Shown: positions 926 through 18,630 of the stretch, piece by piece
Layout of the letters: each line of letters opens with the position of its first letter
Position numbering within the stretch: the first letter of the stretch is position 1
Source: an uncultured Woeseia sp.
GTDB lineage: Bacteria > Pseudomonadota > Gammaproteobacteria > Steroidobacterales > Woeseiaceae
Length of the DNA: 64,000 nt
Direction: 5' to 3'
Assembly (NCBI GenBank): GCA_913031125.1
Contig: CAJWFK010000006.1
Location: 1-64,000 of the forward strand
The notes under the pieces: model-generated
Told to the model about the DNA's origin: nothing
The model's database searches: none
The model's input: only the letters and a program-made list of their open reading frames with translations
Made by a program: the position numbers and the translations under genes

Positions 926-1954
926 TCATGATCTAATAGATGGATAACGTCGCTGCAGCCAATCGAGCAGTATTGCATTTAGCTCGTCCGGTTTCTCCTG
1001 TTGCGTCCAATGACCGCAATCCTCGATCATAGTTATTTCTAAATCCTCTACATATGGTTTCATTTGCTCAATTTGTTTGGTACTTACTACAATTTCATCG
1101 GTTGCACCTACAAATAAGGTTGGGGATTGCACAATCTGTTTAATATTGCGTGTACTTTTCCAGTTGTGTTTGAAATTCCTGTACCAGTTAATTGGTCCGG
1201 TGAAACCATTTTTTGTAAAGGCTCTGGTGTAGTAGGCGAGCTCTTCTGCATTTAGGACTGGCTCACCACTTGGGTTTTCCTGTTCAAGCATCCTAATTAG
1301 GCTAATAGCATTTTTTTTACCCGATTTTTTCTTAGGCTCTTTGGTATTTCGTTGACGTTTACGCATTATTGAGTTGATAAAATGACTTGGGTTTTCGTTA
1401 AAATAGCGATCCGCTTCATCTGAGTCTTGGAAATTAACGATGTAAAAATCTTTGCCGAGTTTCCAGCGCATCATCGTAATCGGATTGATTGGTGGTCGTT
1501 TGAAAAATGGAATATTGAGAGCGATTAGACCGCTTATTCGTTTGGGTACTATCAAACTCATTTGCCACGCTATAAGGGCCCCCCAGTCGTGGCCTATAAT
1601 CACTGGCCTGTTGATTGAAAGCGCGTCCATAAGCCCCGTTAAATCGCCAATCAATTCCTGGATGGTGTAATCGGAGATATTGGGAGGTACATCTGTACCG
1701 CCATAGCCACGCATATCTGGAGCAATTACACGGTAACCCGCTTCAGCAAGAGGCAGCATTTGCTTTCTCCAGGAAAAAGCTAATTCGGGAAAACCGTGCA
1801 CAAGAATAATGGGTGGTCCCGCACCGATCTCGTGTACGGCCATTCGGATTTCACCTGTGTCAACTATTACTGGATCTGGAAATTTTGCATGCATAAACAT
1901 CTTTGTAGTAAGGAAACCCTTGTATTTTAGCCTCACCAGCGCTAATTTCCCCAC
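926..1954 (-). CDS. Alpha/beta hydrolase, epoxide-hydrolase-like
   Basis: Predicted soluble alpha/beta-fold hydrolase of the epoxide hydrolase/haloalkane dehalogenase group. The oxyanion-hole motif HGFPE is near residue 53, the nucleophile motif GHDWGA places Asp at about 123, and the catalytic His lies in DCGHW at about 315. Asp rather than Ser as nucleophile, and a cap-domain NWYRNF segment typical of epoxide hydrolases, favour epoxide opening over ester hydrolysis. The reading frame opens at 1954, but Met19 (1900) or Met21 (1894) are equally possible starts and would give a more usual N-terminus. It is transcribed away from ileS and has no obvious operon partner. The natural substrate cannot be told from sequence. 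Confidence 0.8.
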   Translation of the reverse strand: MGKLALVRLKYKGFLTTKMFMHAKFPDPVIVDTGEIRMAVHEIGAGPPIILVHGFPELAFSWRKQMLPLAEAGYRVIAPDMRGYGGTDVPPNISDYTIQELIGDLTGLMDALSINRPVIIGHDWGALIAWQMSLIVPKRISGLIALNIPFFKRPPINPITMMRWKLGKDFYIVNFQDSDEADRYFNENPSHFINSIMRKRQRNTKEPKKKSGKKNAISLIRMLEQENPSGEPVLNAEELAYYTRAFTKNGFTGPINWYRNFKHNWKSTRNIKQIVQSPTLFVGATDEIVVSTKQIEQMKPYVEDLEITMIEDCGHWTQQEKPDELNAILLDWLQRRYPSIRS

Positions 1955-1997
1955 ATTGATGTAGATGGGGACAAATAGGCGGACTAATTCGTTGCCA

Positions 1998-2204
1998 GCG
2001 ACTGGGGGAGAGTGCGAGCCTCGGAACGAATCCCGCTAAATATCACCCCGGAGTCGCCGTTCGAAAGCTAAGGGCTAGTAGGCACGGCCGGCTGGCCCCC
2101 GAGATAGGGTACAAATGAGGCGAGGTTCTTTCCTCGTGAACCGGGTGGTACCGCGATATGGACATGATTCGCCCCGGACGCTCTTACGAGCGTCCGGGGT
2201 TTTT
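1998..2204 (+). promoter_or_regulatory. T-box riboswitch (tRNA-Ile sensing) upstream of ileS
   Basis: Leader RNA that tests the charging state of tRNA-Ile. Stem I closes with GCGACT (1998-2003) against AGTCGC (2052-2057), then GGGG (2004-2007) against CCCC (2046-2049). The specifier loop carries the isoleucine codon ATC at 2042-2044 followed by the conserved purine A2045. A hairpin at 2121-2136 (CGAGG/CCTCG) follows. The antiterminator pairs CCGGG (2141-2145) with CCCGG (2173-2177) and GCG (2153-2155) with CGC (2170-2172), leaving the canonical seven-base bulge TGGTACC (2146-2152), whose UGGU complements an uncharged ACCA end. Stem I is short, as in actinobacterial ileS leaders, yet the switch ends in a transcription terminator. 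All pairings were read directly. Confidence 0.94.
2172..2204 (+). terminator. T-box intrinsic terminator of the ileS leader
   Basis: A perfect 12-bp stem, CCCCGGACGCTC (2172-2183) with GAGCGTCCGGGG (2188-2199), loop TTAC, followed by five T residues (2200-2204). Its 5' arm shares bases 2172-2177 with the antiterminator, so the two folds exclude each other. Uncharged tRNA-Ile would stabilise the antiterminator and let transcription continue into ileS. Confidence 0.92.
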
Positions 2205-2220
2205 ATTTAGGAATAAACAG

Positions 2221-5200
2221 ATGGGTTTTAACGAAGTTACTGGCCGTTATGATGGCCCGGGAATTGAAAAAGCAGTGCTTGAATTTTGGGAAGAGCATGC
2301 TGTTTTCGAGGCCACTCTTGAAATGTCGCGCGGGAAGCCATTATTTACTTTTAATGAGGGGCCTCCAACTGCGAACGGTAAACCGGGTATTCATCACGTA
2401 TTGGCGCGTAGTTTTAAAGATATCTACCCTCGGTATAAGACAATGCGTGGCTATCATGTCCCACGCAAAGCCGGTTGGGACACACATGGGCTTCCGGTTG
2501 AGCACGAAGTAGAAAAACATCTTAAGAAAGAAGGGTTAATTGAAAGCTACGACAAGCAGGAAATAGAAGAAAAAGTTGGTATTGCTGAGTTTACGAGACT
2601 TTGTCGCGAGTCAGTGATGACATATGTCAGTGACTGGGAAATTATGACTGAGCGTATGGGCTTCTGGGTCAATCTAGATGAAGCCTACTATACGTTGCAC
2701 AATAGTTTTATCGAAACAGAGTGGTATCTGCTTAAAAAGATCTGGGAAAAGGGACTTATTTATCGCGGCTACAAAGTTGTACCTTACGATCCGCGTATCG
2801 GAGCAACTTTGTCATCCCATGAACTCGCACTCGGTTATAAGGATGTTGACGACCCATCGATTTTTGTCCGATTTCCAGTCAGTGGCGAAAAAAATGTGTT
2901 TTTCCTCGCATGGACGACTACGCCCTGGACTCTGCCGGCGAATCTGCTGCTAGCTGTAAACACTGAAATCGATTACGTTTATGTTGAAACCGGCGAGGAA
3001 GTTTTGGTTTTTGCGAAAGACCTTGTCGAATCAGTGATGCAAGATCGTGACTACAGGGTAGTTAAAGAGGTTAAGGGGGCGGATCTTGTAGGTAAGAGTT
3101 ACGATCGCTTGTTTGATTTCTTTGCTGTTGATGGAGATCCTTTTCGCATTGTTGGCGCTGACTTTGTTACCACCGAAACAGGAACTGGAATTGTGCATAC
3201 AGCACCTGCTTATGGTGTCGATGATTTGGCTGTGGGGCAAGAACATGATCTTCCGGTAATTCATACCGTTGGTCGGGATGGTCTATTTTTGCCTGAAATA
3301 GAGCCTGTGGCAGGTATGTTTTTCAAGGATGCGGATAAAACACTGATTCGTATTCTCAAGGACCGTGGACTTATATTCCGTTCTGAGCGCTATAAACACA
3401 GCTATCCATTTGGTTGGCGCACCGGCGACCCGATTATCTACTATGCAAAAAACGCTTGGTATATCCGAACTTCTGATTATCGTGACCGGATGACAGAGCT
3501 GAACAAGACTATTAACTGGGTTCCCGAAAATATACGTGATGGTCGTTTTGGAAATTGGCTCGAGAACAACGTCGACTGGGCACTCTCCCGCGAACGCTTC
3601 TGGGGGACGCCACTACCAGTGTGGACTGACAAGAAAGGTGATTATATTTGTGTGGGCTCCGTCAAAGAATTGGAAGAACTCTCTGGCCAGACTCTGGACA
3701 AACTGGATTTACATCGACCTGCGGTTGATGAGATTACCTTCACTATAGAAGGTAGGACTTACAGCCGCGTTCCAGAGGTTATTGATTGTTGGTTTGATTC
3801 GGGCGCAATGTCATACGCGCAGTGGCATTATCCGTTTGAAAATGAGGACGGCTTTGAGAAAAAATTTCCTGTTGACTACATTTGCGAAGCCATTGACCAG
3901 ACAAGAGGTTGGTTCTATACCCTGCATGCAATTGCGGCACTCGTGTCAGACAATGTCGCTTTTAAAAATTGCATTTGCCTCAATCTTATTGTCGATAAAA
4001 ATGGTAAGAAAATGTCGAAGTCGCTCGGCAATATTGTAAATCCATATGATGTTTTCGATACGGTTGGAGCTGATGCCCTGCGGTGGTATTTTCTGGCTCG
4101 GCTGAGTCCTGAAGCACTCAAGCGCATATCCGTTGAGATTGTTCAAGACGTAGCCAGTTCATTTATGAACACATTTTGGAATACGTACAGTTTTTTCGTT
4201 CTGTATGCGCGGATCGATGGTGTCGATATCAAAAACGATATTGCCATTGTTGATCGGCCGGAGATTGATCGTTGGGTTCTGGCGTTGCTTAATAAAACGA
4301 TCCGGAATTGTACTGATGCACTTGATAAGTTTGATGCGAAATCGGCCGGAGAAGAAATTGAGTCGTTTGTCAATCAGCTAAGCAATTGGTATGTACGCAG
4401 AAATAGGCGCCGGTTTTGGAAATCCACAGATCCGGAAGACAAGGATGCAGCGTACCTTACGTTATACGAGTGTTTAAATGGAGTGCACCGGCTGATGGCA
4501 CCATTTATGCCATTTATTGCTGAGCACGTTTATCAGAATCTTGTCCGAAATATTGACCAGGATGCCGCAATAAGTGTGCATATGAATAGCTGGCCGGAAG
4601 CTAATCCCGTTTGTGATGATGATGCGCTGCTTTATGACATCAGTGTGGTTCAAAAAGTGGTTGAGTTGGCTCGCGCTGCTCGTGGGCAGTCCGGGGTGCG
4701 AACTCGACAACCTTTATCGAAAATGTTGGTGCATCCCCCGAACGAAAGGGCCCGCAAAGCGATTGAAGATCACAAGGAGCAAGTGCTTGAAGAACTTAAT
4801 GTTAAACAACTAGAGTTCATCGACAGGGAGACAGGGTTGGTGAATTATCGTATCAAACCTAATTTGCCGCGACTTGGTAAACAGTACGGTAAGTTTCTTC
4901 CCCAGATTAAGAAGATTCTAGATACACTGGATGCCAATGAAATTGCTGCTAAAGTCGATCGAGGCGAAGAAATTCCCATCGAGGCGGGGGAGGAATCGAT
5001 AATTCTAGTTCCGGAAGATTTGCTTATAGAGACCACATCGGCTGAAGGTTACGCGTGCGGAAAAGAAGGTGGTTATCTTATCGCGTTGGATACTTCTTTG
5101 ACTGAGGCCCTTGTCCGGGAGGGCATTGCCCGGGAACTTATACGGACGGTTCAAGAGGGTAGGAAGAAAGCTGGACTCGATGTTTCGGATCGGATTGTAC

Positions 5201-5388
5201 TGGGTATTTTCGGATCAGAGGTTATCGAGGAAGTACTAACCGAATATCAGAGTTATCTGATGTCGGAAACTCTGGCGACTCATTGGAGGGTTGGCCAGGA
5301 TTCCCCACTCTGGCAAGAGGAAAGATCACTCGATAATGAGCAATGGACGATTGAAATTAGCAAGGTTTCCGAAAAGTGTGAACCGTAA
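2221..5388 (+). CDS. ileS: Isoleucyl-tRNA synthetase, type II (eukaryote/archaeal-like)
   Basis: Cytoplasmic class I synthetase that attaches isoleucine to tRNA-Ile. The 1055-residue length is that of type II IleS rather than the ~930-residue type usual in gammaproteobacteria. The ATP-binding signature is GIHHV near residues 56-60, GWDTHGLPVE follows, and KMSKS lies at 597-601; editing (CP1) and anticodon-binding domains occupy the middle and C-terminal parts. The in-frame ATG at 2158 is inside the T-box antiterminator, so I start at the ATG at 2221, preceded by AGGAA (2209-2213) at 7-nt spacing. Type II enzymes are characteristically poorly inhibited by mupirocin. The usual ribF/lspA neighbours are absent. 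With the T-box, this suggests horizontal acquisition as a unit. Confidence 0.96.
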   Translation: MGFNEVTGRYDGPGIEKAVLEFWEEHAVFEATLEMSRGKPLFTFNEGPPTANGKPGIHHVLARSFKDIYPRYKTMRGYHVPRKAGWDTHGLPVEHEVEKHLKKEGLIESYDKQEIEEKVGIAEFTRLCRESVMTYVSDWEIMTERMGFWVNLDEAYYTLHNSFIETEWYLLKKIWEKGLIYRGYKVVPYDPRIGATLSSHELALGYKDVDDPSIFVRFPVSGEKNVFFLAWTTTPWTLPANLLLAVNTEIDYVYVETGEEVLVFAKDLVESVMQDRDYRVVKEVKGADLVGKSYDRLFDFFAVDGDPFRIVGADFVTTETGTGIVHTAPAYGVDDLAVGQEHDLPVIHTVGRDGLFLPEIEPVAGMFFKDADKTLIRILKDRGLIFRSERYKHSYPFGWRTGDPIIYYAKNAWYIRTSDYRDRMTELNKTINWVPENIRDGRFGNWLENNVDWALSRERFWGTPLPVWTDKKGDYICVGSVKELEELSGQTLDKLDLHRPAVDEITFTIEGRTYSRVPEVIDCWFDSGAMSYAQWHYPFENEDGFEKKFPVDYICEAIDQTRGWFYTLHAIAALVSDNVAFKNCICLNLIVDKNGKKMSKSLGNIVNPYDVFDTVGADALRWYFLARLSPEALKRISVEIVQDVASSFMNTFWNTYSFFVLYARIDGVDIKNDIAIVDRPEIDRWVLALLNKTIRNCTDALDKFDAKSAGEEIESFVNQLSNWYVRRNRRRFWKSTDPEDKDAAYLTLYECLNGVHRLMAPFMPFIAEHVYQNLVRNIDQDAAISVHMNSWPEANPVCDDDALLYDISVVQKVVELARAARGQSGVRTRQPLSKMLVHPPNERARKAIEDHKEQVLEELNVKQLEFIDRETGLVNYRIKPNLPRLGKQYGKFLPQIKKILDTLDANEIAAKVDRGEEIPIEAGEESIILVPEDLLIETTSAEGYACGKEGGYLIALDTSLTEALVREGIARELIRTVQEGRKKAGLDVSDRIVLGIFGSEVIEEVLTEYQSYLMSETLATHWRVGQDSPLWQEERSLDNEQWTIEISKVSEKCEP

Positions 5389-9426: not shown

Positions 9427-10269
9427 CTACGGTTGCCTATAGATATGAATGTCCTGCTGAGGAAATGGGAATGAGATGCCTTCTTGATCGAAACGTTTCT
9501 TGACTGCTTCAGTCATATCAAATTTAACGTTTGCGTAATCTTGTGTCTTAACCCACACCCTTACCATGAAATTTACACTAGAATCTGCGAGTTCCGAAAC
9601 CGCAATTAAATAATTTGGGTCTTTCAGAATGCGAGACTCATTTTTGATCAAATCCTCGATGGTTTTACGTACTTTATCGAGATCATCCTTGTAGCTTACG
9701 GCAATGGTCATATCGATGCGGCGAGTTTTTTTGGCAGAATAATTTGTAATAACACTATTCATAATTTGGCTGTTGGGAACGATAATTTGTTTGTTGTCAG
9801 CTGTTATCAATATTGTTGTCAGTATTTGAACTTGTTCAACGGAACCGGAAATTCCAGCCGCTTCTATCCAGTCACCAACGCGGTATGGCCGAAAAACTAC
9901 GATGAGAACTCCAGCGGCAAAATTCGATAGAGAGCCTTGTAAAGCGAGACCAACGGCAAGTCCTGCAGCACCTAGCATGGCTACAAGAGATGTAGTTTGC
10001 ACTCCTATCTGGTGTACCGCTGCGATGATTACGAATATCATAATCGCCCAGTAAGCGAGGTTACAGACGAAGGTCTCTAGAATCTTGTCAACCTGCTGTG
10101 ACTGCAATATGCGATGGAGTGTATTTTGGGCGGTTTTTGCAATGACTCTTCCGACCCAGAATATGACAAGGGCTGTAACTAGCTGCAGACCGAACTCGCT
10201 ACTCAACGTAATTATTTTTTCCCAAAGTTGAGGCCAGTTGGGGCCAGACATATCTGTAAGGTCATTCAT
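9427..10269 (-). CDS. mscS: Small-conductance mechanosensitive channel MscS
   Basis: Inner-membrane channel that opens under membrane tension and releases solutes after hypo-osmotic shock. The 280-residue size is that of the minimal MscS. Three hydrophobic segments occupy roughly residues 20-125; the third carries the Gly/Ala-rich pore helix (AMLGAAGLAVGLALQGSLSNFAAG). The cytoplasmic beta domain begins with FRPYRVGDWIEAAG and continues to IVPNSQIMNSVITNYS. The gene is transcribed divergently from the SRPBCC gene with ~196 bp between them. Identification is firm. Confidence 0.94.
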   Translation of the reverse strand: MNDLTDMSGPNWPQLWEKIITLSSEFGLQLVTALVIFWVGRVIAKTAQNTLHRILQSQQVDKILETFVCNLAYWAIMIFVIIAAVHQIGVQTTSLVAMLGAAGLAVGLALQGSLSNFAAGVLIVVFRPYRVGDWIEAAGISGSVEQVQILTTILITADNKQIIVPNSQIMNSVITNYSAKKTRRIDMTIAVSYKDDLDKVRKTIEDLIKNESRILKDPNYLIAVSELADSSVNFMVRVWVKTQDYANVKFDMTEAVKKRFDQEGISFPFPQQDIHIYRQP

Positions 10270-18319: not shown

Positions 18320-18630
18320 TGGTGGGCCCGCCAGGACTCGAACCTGGGACCAAGGGATTCACTTTACCCAATCATTATCTGAATGGAGTGGACTATCTCA
18401 TCACCCTCAACCGAATTGCTAGGGGCGGGACGCTCTCGCCTGTTATTAAGAACACTAAAGTTCCCAGGTAGTCTCTGCACCTTCCGGCGGTGTACCGCCA
18501 GCTTGGCTCAGGGTTGCCATCAGCCTAACTGTTAAGGTTTCCCTGAATTCATCCCGTTCAATTTCCGCCTTTCGGCACAAACGCACCGATTCGATGAGTC
18601 CCCTGCTCTAACCAACTGAGCTACAGGCCC
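18320..18630 (-). tRNA. ileX: tRNA-Ile2 (CAU) gene interrupted by a group I intron
   Basis: The exons join into a complete tRNA. Acceptor GGGCCTG (from 18630) pairs with CGGGCCC, discriminator A, and CCA is encoded (18320-18322). The D-arm is GCTC/GAGC, the anticodon stem GGGGA/TCCCT with loop CTCATAA, and the T-arm CCAGG/CCTGG with TTCGAGT. The anticodon CAT is at 18594-18596. The CCA-encoded end, the variable loop TGGTC and the position after rpoD, as for E. coli ileX, point to tRNA-Ile2, whose C34 is converted to lysidine by TilS to read AUA, rather than elongator tRNA-Met. The intron occupies 18360-18593. Confidence 0.93.
18360..18593 (-). other. Group I intron (Azoarcus-like) in the tRNA anticodon loop
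   Basis: Self-splicing RNA of 234 nt inserted directly after the CAU anticodon. The 5' exon CAU can pair with GUG seven bases into the intron to form P1 with the required U-G at the splice site; the last intron base is G. P2 is capped by a GAAA loop. The core strands are present: AATTCAGGGAAACC (18536-18549), GTGCAGAGACTA (18469-18480) and GATGAGATAGTCC (18390-18402), close to the Azoarcus intron, as is ATGGCAAC...GAGCCAAGC between them. There is no room for a homing endonuclease. Subtype IC3 is inferred from this resemblance. Confidence 0.93.

Follow-up and report, generated by a model that had tools for sequence, protein, structure and literature searches.

In the established T-box mechanism, uncharged cognate tRNA stabilizes an antiterminator. 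Taken together, the passages of two surveys cited here record T-boxes from Firmicutes, Actinobacteria, Chloroflexi, Deinococcus-Thermus, and Geobacter/Pelobacter (PMC2494555 and PMC3766115); the relevant part of the second survey describes them as limited to Firmicutes, Actinobacteria, Chloroflexi, and Thermus/Deinococcus, apart from one additional case in Geobacter. The word "proteobacteria" is absent from the cited part of the T-box database paper (PMC7778990), and the database itself may hold an element like the one described here. A literature search, conducted largely by title, found no report of a T-box in Gammaproteobacteria or upstream of ileS in the Woeseiaceae, and databases may list such an element. 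The kind of switch is known, and the class Gammaproteobacteria is without a described case in the literature searched.

We compared these systems with the leader of ileS in a 64,000-nucleotide stretch of DNA from an uncultured Woeseia sp., referred to here as the window. Transcriptional (class I) T-boxes of Firmicutes, represented by Rfam model RF00230, resemble this leader in their Stem I specifier, AGNGA and GGUGNRA-like loops, Stem III, UGGN bulge, antiterminator/terminator switch, and aminoacyl-tRNA synthetase target. The leader differs from them in its gammaproteobacterial host, in its occurrence once per genome rather than many times, and in a score under the Rfam cutoff. Chloroflexota ileS T-boxes, such as that of Dehalococcoides (in the part of PMC2494555 that treats them), share an isoleucine T-box preceding ileS. 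However, Chloroflexota carry several T-boxes per genome (4 to 8 in 16 of 20 genomes and 0, 2, 3, and 21 in the others), and their IleS proteins are just 44 to 50% identical to that of the window. Actinobacterial ileS T-boxes regulate the same gene in response to the same amino acid but, according to the cited section of PMC1262725, sequester the Shine-Dalgarno sequence, whereas the leader studied here has a terminator and a full Stem I. The leuA T-boxes of Geobacter and Pelobacter, again in the part of PMC2494555 used here, are alike in occurring in hosts then classed as Proteobacteria and differ in gene, amino acid pathway, and lineage.

We consider it highly probable that the ileS leader is a canonical transcription-attenuating T-box for uncharged tRNA-Ile(GAU), and likely that gene and switch were acquired together, replacing a native type I ileS. 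The computations below show the anatomy of the leader, its conservation and covariation, folds that exclude one another, its linkage to the gene, and its distribution; tRNA binding, antitermination, joint transfer, and replacement are inferred. The original prediction of a T-box upstream of ileS in a gammaproteobacterium held for the T-box, its isoleucine specifier, the terminator platform, the gene, and the host, but its coordinates and its Stem I class needed correction.

A cmscan search of 401 bases returned a full-length RF00230 match on the + strand at 1953-2179 (model positions 1 to 219, 76.3 bits, E = 5.9e-17), and in a scan of the whole genome (2.98 Mb) the leader was the sole match at E ≤ 0.001 (E = 1.0e-16). 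A match to this model was the check that the original prediction had proposed, and one was found, although under the curated cutoff: the Rfam gathering score for RF00230 is 93, so a default Rfam scan of the window reports no T-box. When an E-value threshold was used, the T-box leader ranked first among the Rfam matches there. The cutoff appears strict, since 5 of 14 control genomes had RF00230 matches and just 2 exceeded it, the other 3 falling below. Likewise, among the 90 genomes with a match in a survey of the order, 16 reached the cutoff and 74 fell below it. Nine other subthreshold Rfam matches in 1900-2300 were set aside; eight coincide in part with the terminator hairpin and were regarded as look-alikes of it, and the ninth is a truncated viral IRES match.

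The leader extends on the + strand from approximately 1953 to 2204 and is followed by an ORF with a likely ATG start at 2221. The original prediction had placed the start of the element at 1998, leaving out the first 45 bases and with them the 5' half of Stem I. Helices mapped from a 60-sequence alignment place Stem I at 1958-2055, a span of 98 nt, with basal pairs between 1958-1960 and 2053-2055 and between 1967-1970 and 2046-2049. Further pairs join 1979-1982 with 2033-2036, 1992-1993 with 2025-2026, and 2002-2006 with 2020-2024. The stem carries what we take to be the standard Stem I motifs: a kink-turn-like element (5' side GATGGGGA at 1964-1971 and 3' side GGAG at 2050-2053), a distal AGNGA bulge (here AGCGA, 1997-2001), and a GGUGNRA-like terminal loop (GAGUGCGA, 2010-2017) identified from the Rfam match and the relatives. 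A short Stem I recalling the actinobacterial ileS class, as first read, was an artifact of the late start. A translational T-box of the actinobacterial type would have a truncated Stem I lacking distal loops, and here both GAGUGCGA and AGCGA are present. The supposed conflict of a short Stem I with a terminator disappears, because Stem I belongs to the ordinary long transcriptional class. The specifier AUC (isoleucine) was correctly read at 2042-2044, as was the purine that follows it, A2045. Downstream lie the Stem II region at 2056-2088 (2056-2059 paired with 2085-2088, plus an inner helix; covarying helices 6 and 7) and Stem III at 2120-2136, in which all seven pairs show two-sided changes and 84.7% of cells are paired.

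The 5' side of the antiterminator (2141-2156) includes the T-box bulge UGGUACC at 2146-2152, and its 3' side occupies 2169-2177; 2141-2145 pairs with 2173-2177, and 2153-2156 pairs with 2169-2172. UGGU of the bulge, at 2146-2149, lies between these two helices. Both the bulge and the antiterminator had been recognized in the first reading. A pattern scan identified an intrinsic terminator hairpin at 2171-2200, followed by a U-run, in which 2171-2183 pairs with 2188-2200 around a 4-nt loop. The hairpin has 13 pairs when one G-U is counted rather than the 12 first reported, and the claim that the two folds exclude each other stands, as the seven bases 2171-2177 are common to both. With each fold considered alone, the predicted energies were -28.9 kcal/mol for the terminator and -11.5 kcal/mol for the antiterminator. 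The sequence AGGA at 2209-2212, a probable ribosome-binding site, is located 3' of the terminator; sequestration of a Shine-Dalgarno sequence in place of a terminator was rejected, with the hairpin at 2171-2200 and AGGA outside it. No sigma-70 promoter pattern was found by a pattern scan of 1800-2300, which counts against the T-box reading. Folding of the stretch 1980-2212, in which the base of Stem I is missing, gave a z score of -2.2, and 3 of 200 shuffles folded equally well. The 15-base core had one mismatch-free occurrence in the window, and 3 matches with up to 3 mismatches versus 0.63 expected. The element is not a chance resemblance, because the core is rare in the window and the whole element recurs before the ileS genes of relatives with covarying helices.

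Comparison with relatives, which the original prediction had called for, recovered the same element before ileS in 92 sequences, of which the order survey supplied 90 and other gammaproteobacteria two. Each of the 92 elements precedes ileS on its own strand; the distance to the first aligned residue is 37 to 148 nt in 91 and 700 nt in the remaining one, from an Arenicellales genome. The specifier is ATC (AUC in the RNA) in 92/92, and the next base is A in 88, G in 2, and T in 2, making it a purine in 90/92. AGNGA is likewise found in all 92, GAN(G/A)GGGA in 89, and the core GGGTGGTACC in 91. By a loose ad hoc rule, 86 of the 92 have a terminator-like hairpin with a U-run, and in 82 its start matches the antiterminator. 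The same loose rule scored the hairpin as kept without a U-run in five (L005, L127, L164, L177, and L179); the sixth element, L216 from genome G231, has no bulge motif and was left out of the hairpin scoring.

These five family members are among the few observations that favor a T-box acting on translation, as in Actinobacteria, with a hairpin that is no working terminator. Another is the UBA7447 element (L036, 4682-5001), which lacks an overlapping U-run terminator and in which the predicted fold pairs GGUGAGGGG, located about 20 bases ahead of the start codon; this T-box is perhaps translational. The cited part of PMC12452182 also gives terminators as rare in Pseudomonadota riboswitches (10%). 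In the window, however, the probable ribosome-binding site at 2209-2212 lies outside both folds, the GC-rich 13-pair hairpin is followed by a U-run, and Stem I is of the long class; across the relatives, hairpin and U-run occur together in 86/92. We therefore regard translational control of the window's ileS as unlikely and favor attenuation of transcription.

Covariation was examined in 60 of the 92 elements, chosen for a terminator-like hairpin, a length of no more than 285, and the absence of duplicates. In these rows, 34 of the 46 predicted pairs show two-sided changes. The stem helices are paired in 94.2% of cells, with two-sided changes in 29 of 32 pairs; pairing fell to 31 to 50% when the helices were slid and to 78.7% in shuffles, and none of 500 shuffles reached the observed value. 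The antiterminator is paired in 540/540 cells (100%) and the terminator in 98.2%, counts that the selection of rows favors. Five terminator pairs covary. Covariation says little about the antiterminator because it is nearly invariant: one pair covaries, and 30 of 500 shuffles scored as high.

Three family members carry broken versions of the leader. G003 (L287) and G049 (L288) have lost most of the aptamer: in G003, a palindrome stands where Stem I was, and in G049, that part is deleted. Both still have a bulge-like motif and a hairpin resembling a terminator before ileS. In G231 (L290, from 542), Stem I and AUC are kept and the rest is replaced by a palindromic repeat that forms a terminator of its own. 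About 50 bases upstream of this T-box lies the end of a similar repeat, and the arrangement reflects either misassembly or an antiterminator lost naturally. Such cases speak for a relic that still folds after tRNA sensing was lost in its present host. This explanation is improbable given the constancy of AUC and AGNGA, the near-constancy of UGGUACC, and helix covariation across 12 genera, which point instead to lasting selection on the T-box.

The distribution of the element centers on one family. In a survey of 99 relatives, it was found in 52 of 61 Woeseiaceae genomes, representing all 12 genera, and in 0 of 38 genomes that represent 15 further families of the same order. A larger draw from the order, counted from a kinship-sorted listing, gave 90 of 346, comprising 89 of 107 Woeseiaceae and 1 of 239 others (G119). 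A draw from the class gave 2 of 369, both Woeseiaceae, consistent within these searches with the rarity in Gammaproteobacteria expected at the outset. In a draw from the phylum, the 2 of 398 were the window and one weak 26.1-bit match. The large draws may have lost weak cases, since just the best few candidates per genome were scored. Every Woeseiaceae genome with a match had a single match. Nine of the 61 genomes had no T-box match: G009, G031, and G060 also gave no ileS2 match at 1e-50; in G006, G010, G037, and G041 the ileS2 match lacks the 5' end of the gene; and G003 and G049 have ileS2 with a broken leader.

This distribution also bears on whether the contig is contamination from a mis-binned Gram-positive or Chloroflexota genome. 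The assembly is a draft (105 contigs, contamination estimated at 4.4%), and the end of one contig appears chimeric. Yet the element is present in 89 of 107 family genomes, including the one-contig genome G017, and the window IleS nests within a gammaproteobacterial clade. On the strength of the distribution, we rejected contamination, the chance of which we judge negligible.

The regulated gene (2221-5388, + strand) encodes an isoleucine-tRNA ligase of 1,055 amino acids and the ileS2 (eukaryote-like) type (TIGR00392, 936.5 bits). The best solved chains for it were 8c8u to 8c8w and 8c9d (E = 1e-265 to 3e-262) and 1ile, which include a 1,032-residue IleRS; matches to 8c9e, 8c9f, and 1ffy were far weaker (5e-111 to 1e-102). 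The type 1 and type 2 labels of all these structures are presumed. By this comparison with solved chains, the window IleS is of the ileS2 type, and the trees that we made held ileS2 rows without ileS1. The MupA model scored 815.5 bits on it, under that model's own cutoff. No other IleRS was found in the genome; the matches that rank next resemble ValRS and LeuRS, labels read by length and sequence, and additional weak TIGR00392 matches fall on contigs C4 and C40. A second IleRS was rejected, as the other matches are ValRS-like, LeuRS-like, and one contig-end fragment. At the end of contig C1 (L114), a C-terminal IleS piece 32% identical to that of the window is joined to a SecA-like piece (labels assigned by eye), and this frame looks like an assembly chimera in the draft genome.

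Genes for ileS2 with at least 60% identity were found in 58 of 61 Woeseiaceae genomes. In the other families of the order, 33 of 38 genomes gave matches of 30 to 33%, in frames of 756 to 1,174 codons that we read as type I ileS; two gave 35 to 44%, and three gave none at 1e-50. The cited part of PMC4861432 describes type 1 IleRS as general in proteobacteria and names some alphaproteobacteria as holders of ileS2 by transfer. In two quick trees, gammaproteobacterial ileS2 of the window's type (24 and 15 rows) formed one side of a branch with support of 100, with Oceanococcus and Hyphomonadaceae ileS2 elsewhere. The first tree used the 80 named IleS loci less 3 that were too short, and the second used 60 of 91 rows and was hand-cut; both were rooted at the midpoint, and neither gave a clear sister of the gammaproteobacterial clade. 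Because this sister is unsettled, the trees do not fix the donor or joint transfer.

In a motif-only search (up to 2 substitutions, within 1.5 kb), a T-box core lay upstream of ileS2 at 46 of the 80 named loci, some of which hold little upstream DNA, and at 16 of 20 Chloroflexota loci. The gammaproteobacterial loci L037 and L040 had no core upstream by this motif search. A T-box search of ileS2 carriers, which took 50 of the 80 loci, found T-boxes in 39 of the 50 genomes, including an Arenicellales genome, the gammaproteobacterium L038, and UBA7447, and found none in SAT1331 (L037), L040, L041, Oceanococcus, or Hyphomonadaceae. Since gammaproteobacterial ileS2 is one clade and a T-box core usually precedes ileS2 in Chloroflexota, the gene probably arrived with its switch. 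Joint entry, after which L037 and L040 lost the switch, is probably the simplest account, and independent gain is less likely.

Several related loci differ in arrangement. In Arenicellales (L042, also L132; 4055-4987), the T-box scores 115.8 bits, above the Rfam cutoff, and a frame with glutathione S-transferase (GST) domains (GST_N_2, E = 1.9e-13) sits between it and ileS; because the T-box precedes the GST frame, which in turn precedes ileS, the GST may be coregulated with ileS. The G119 element (L214, 7857-8301) has no overlapping U-run terminator, and a separate small hairpin with six T's stands just before ileS. An S-adenosylhomocysteine (SAH) riboswitch above the Rfam cutoff occurs at 9565-9645 in the UBA7447 locus, 1.4 kb past ileS. 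T-box matches in the drafts of a Leptolyngbyaceae cyanobacterium (L067) and of G744 (the genome of L064, Poribacteria) are either real or binning errors. In a 0.9-Mb genome of the same phylum (G952; L286), a T-box-like antiterminator with a UGGC bulge lies at 1776-1811 between a tRNA gene and aspS (frame 1876-3309; NF001750, 580.8 bits). It scores 26.1 bits in Rfam and has no convincing Stem I. The discriminator of tRNA-Asp is G, which UGGC would fit, and the element is possibly a second, unusual T-box lineage in Pseudomonadota.

In the proposed mechanism, Stem I would hold tRNA-Ile(GAU) by contacts at the AUC specifier and at the distal loops. With an uncharged tRNA, the free CCA end would pair with UGG of the bulge, holding the antiterminator (2141-2177) and allowing polymerase to read into ileS. 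The tRNA-Ile of Escherichia coli has discriminator A, and the last U of UGGU fits it. If the tRNA is charged, the stronger terminator (2171-2200) would form and transcription would stop ahead of ileS. The only IleRS found in the genome would thus be induced when tRNA-Ile is undercharged, since uncharged tRNA would favor readthrough and charged tRNA termination.

Pattern searches, a tRNA survey, and ARAGORN found no tRNA-Ile(GAU) in either the genome of the window or G017, a relative assembled as one contig; the presumed partner of the leader was thus unseen, a point against the proposed mechanism. The survey gave 33 matches in the former and 42 in the latter, and ARAGORN was run on 30 loci and 26 further stretches, with six G017 matches of 82 to 88 bases excluded. 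Neither a GAT anticodon nor tRNA-Ala(TGC) was seen among the surveyed tRNAs of the two genomes, and ARAGORN on 11 loci with a tRNA-Ile(GAU) pattern returned one tRNA-Gln and no tRNA-Ile(GAU). As tRNA-Ala(TGC) was unseen as well, the rRNA spacers may be absent from the searched sequence. Elsewhere in the window, a group I intron (18369-18606, - strand; Rfam, 61.7 bits, above the cutoff) lies in the anticodon loop of a tRNA at about 18320-18630. With the splice site chosen by ARAGORN, the program calls this tRNA-Gln(ctg); spliced after CAT, it would be a tRNA with a CAT anticodon. The intron of Azoarcus tRNA-Ile(CAU) is a known comparable case.

An ancestor of Woeseiaceae and of a small number of other gammaproteobacterial lineages would have received switch and gene together, and these would have taken the place of its type I ileS. 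The donor was most likely a bacterium, Chloroflexota-like or other, whose ileS2 was already under T-box control. It seems likely, if less so than the T-box reading itself, that riboswitch and synthetase gene moved as a unit into an ancestor shared by several gammaproteobacterial lineages, supplanted the ileS already there, and were kept by selection family-wide. The gammaproteobacterial polymerase would now work a Gram-positive-style switch, and variants would have arisen later, among them forms without a U-run, possible translational forms, aptamer deletions, and the T-box before the GST-ileS pair. A T-box conserved in a gammaproteobacterial family would mean that such a switch can be acquired and kept where riboswitches seldom use terminators. 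The approximately 90 natural homologs, some of them broken, offer a test of how a regulator and its gene travel together, and the same set may be used to ask whether the mechanism works with a gammaproteobacterial polymerase.
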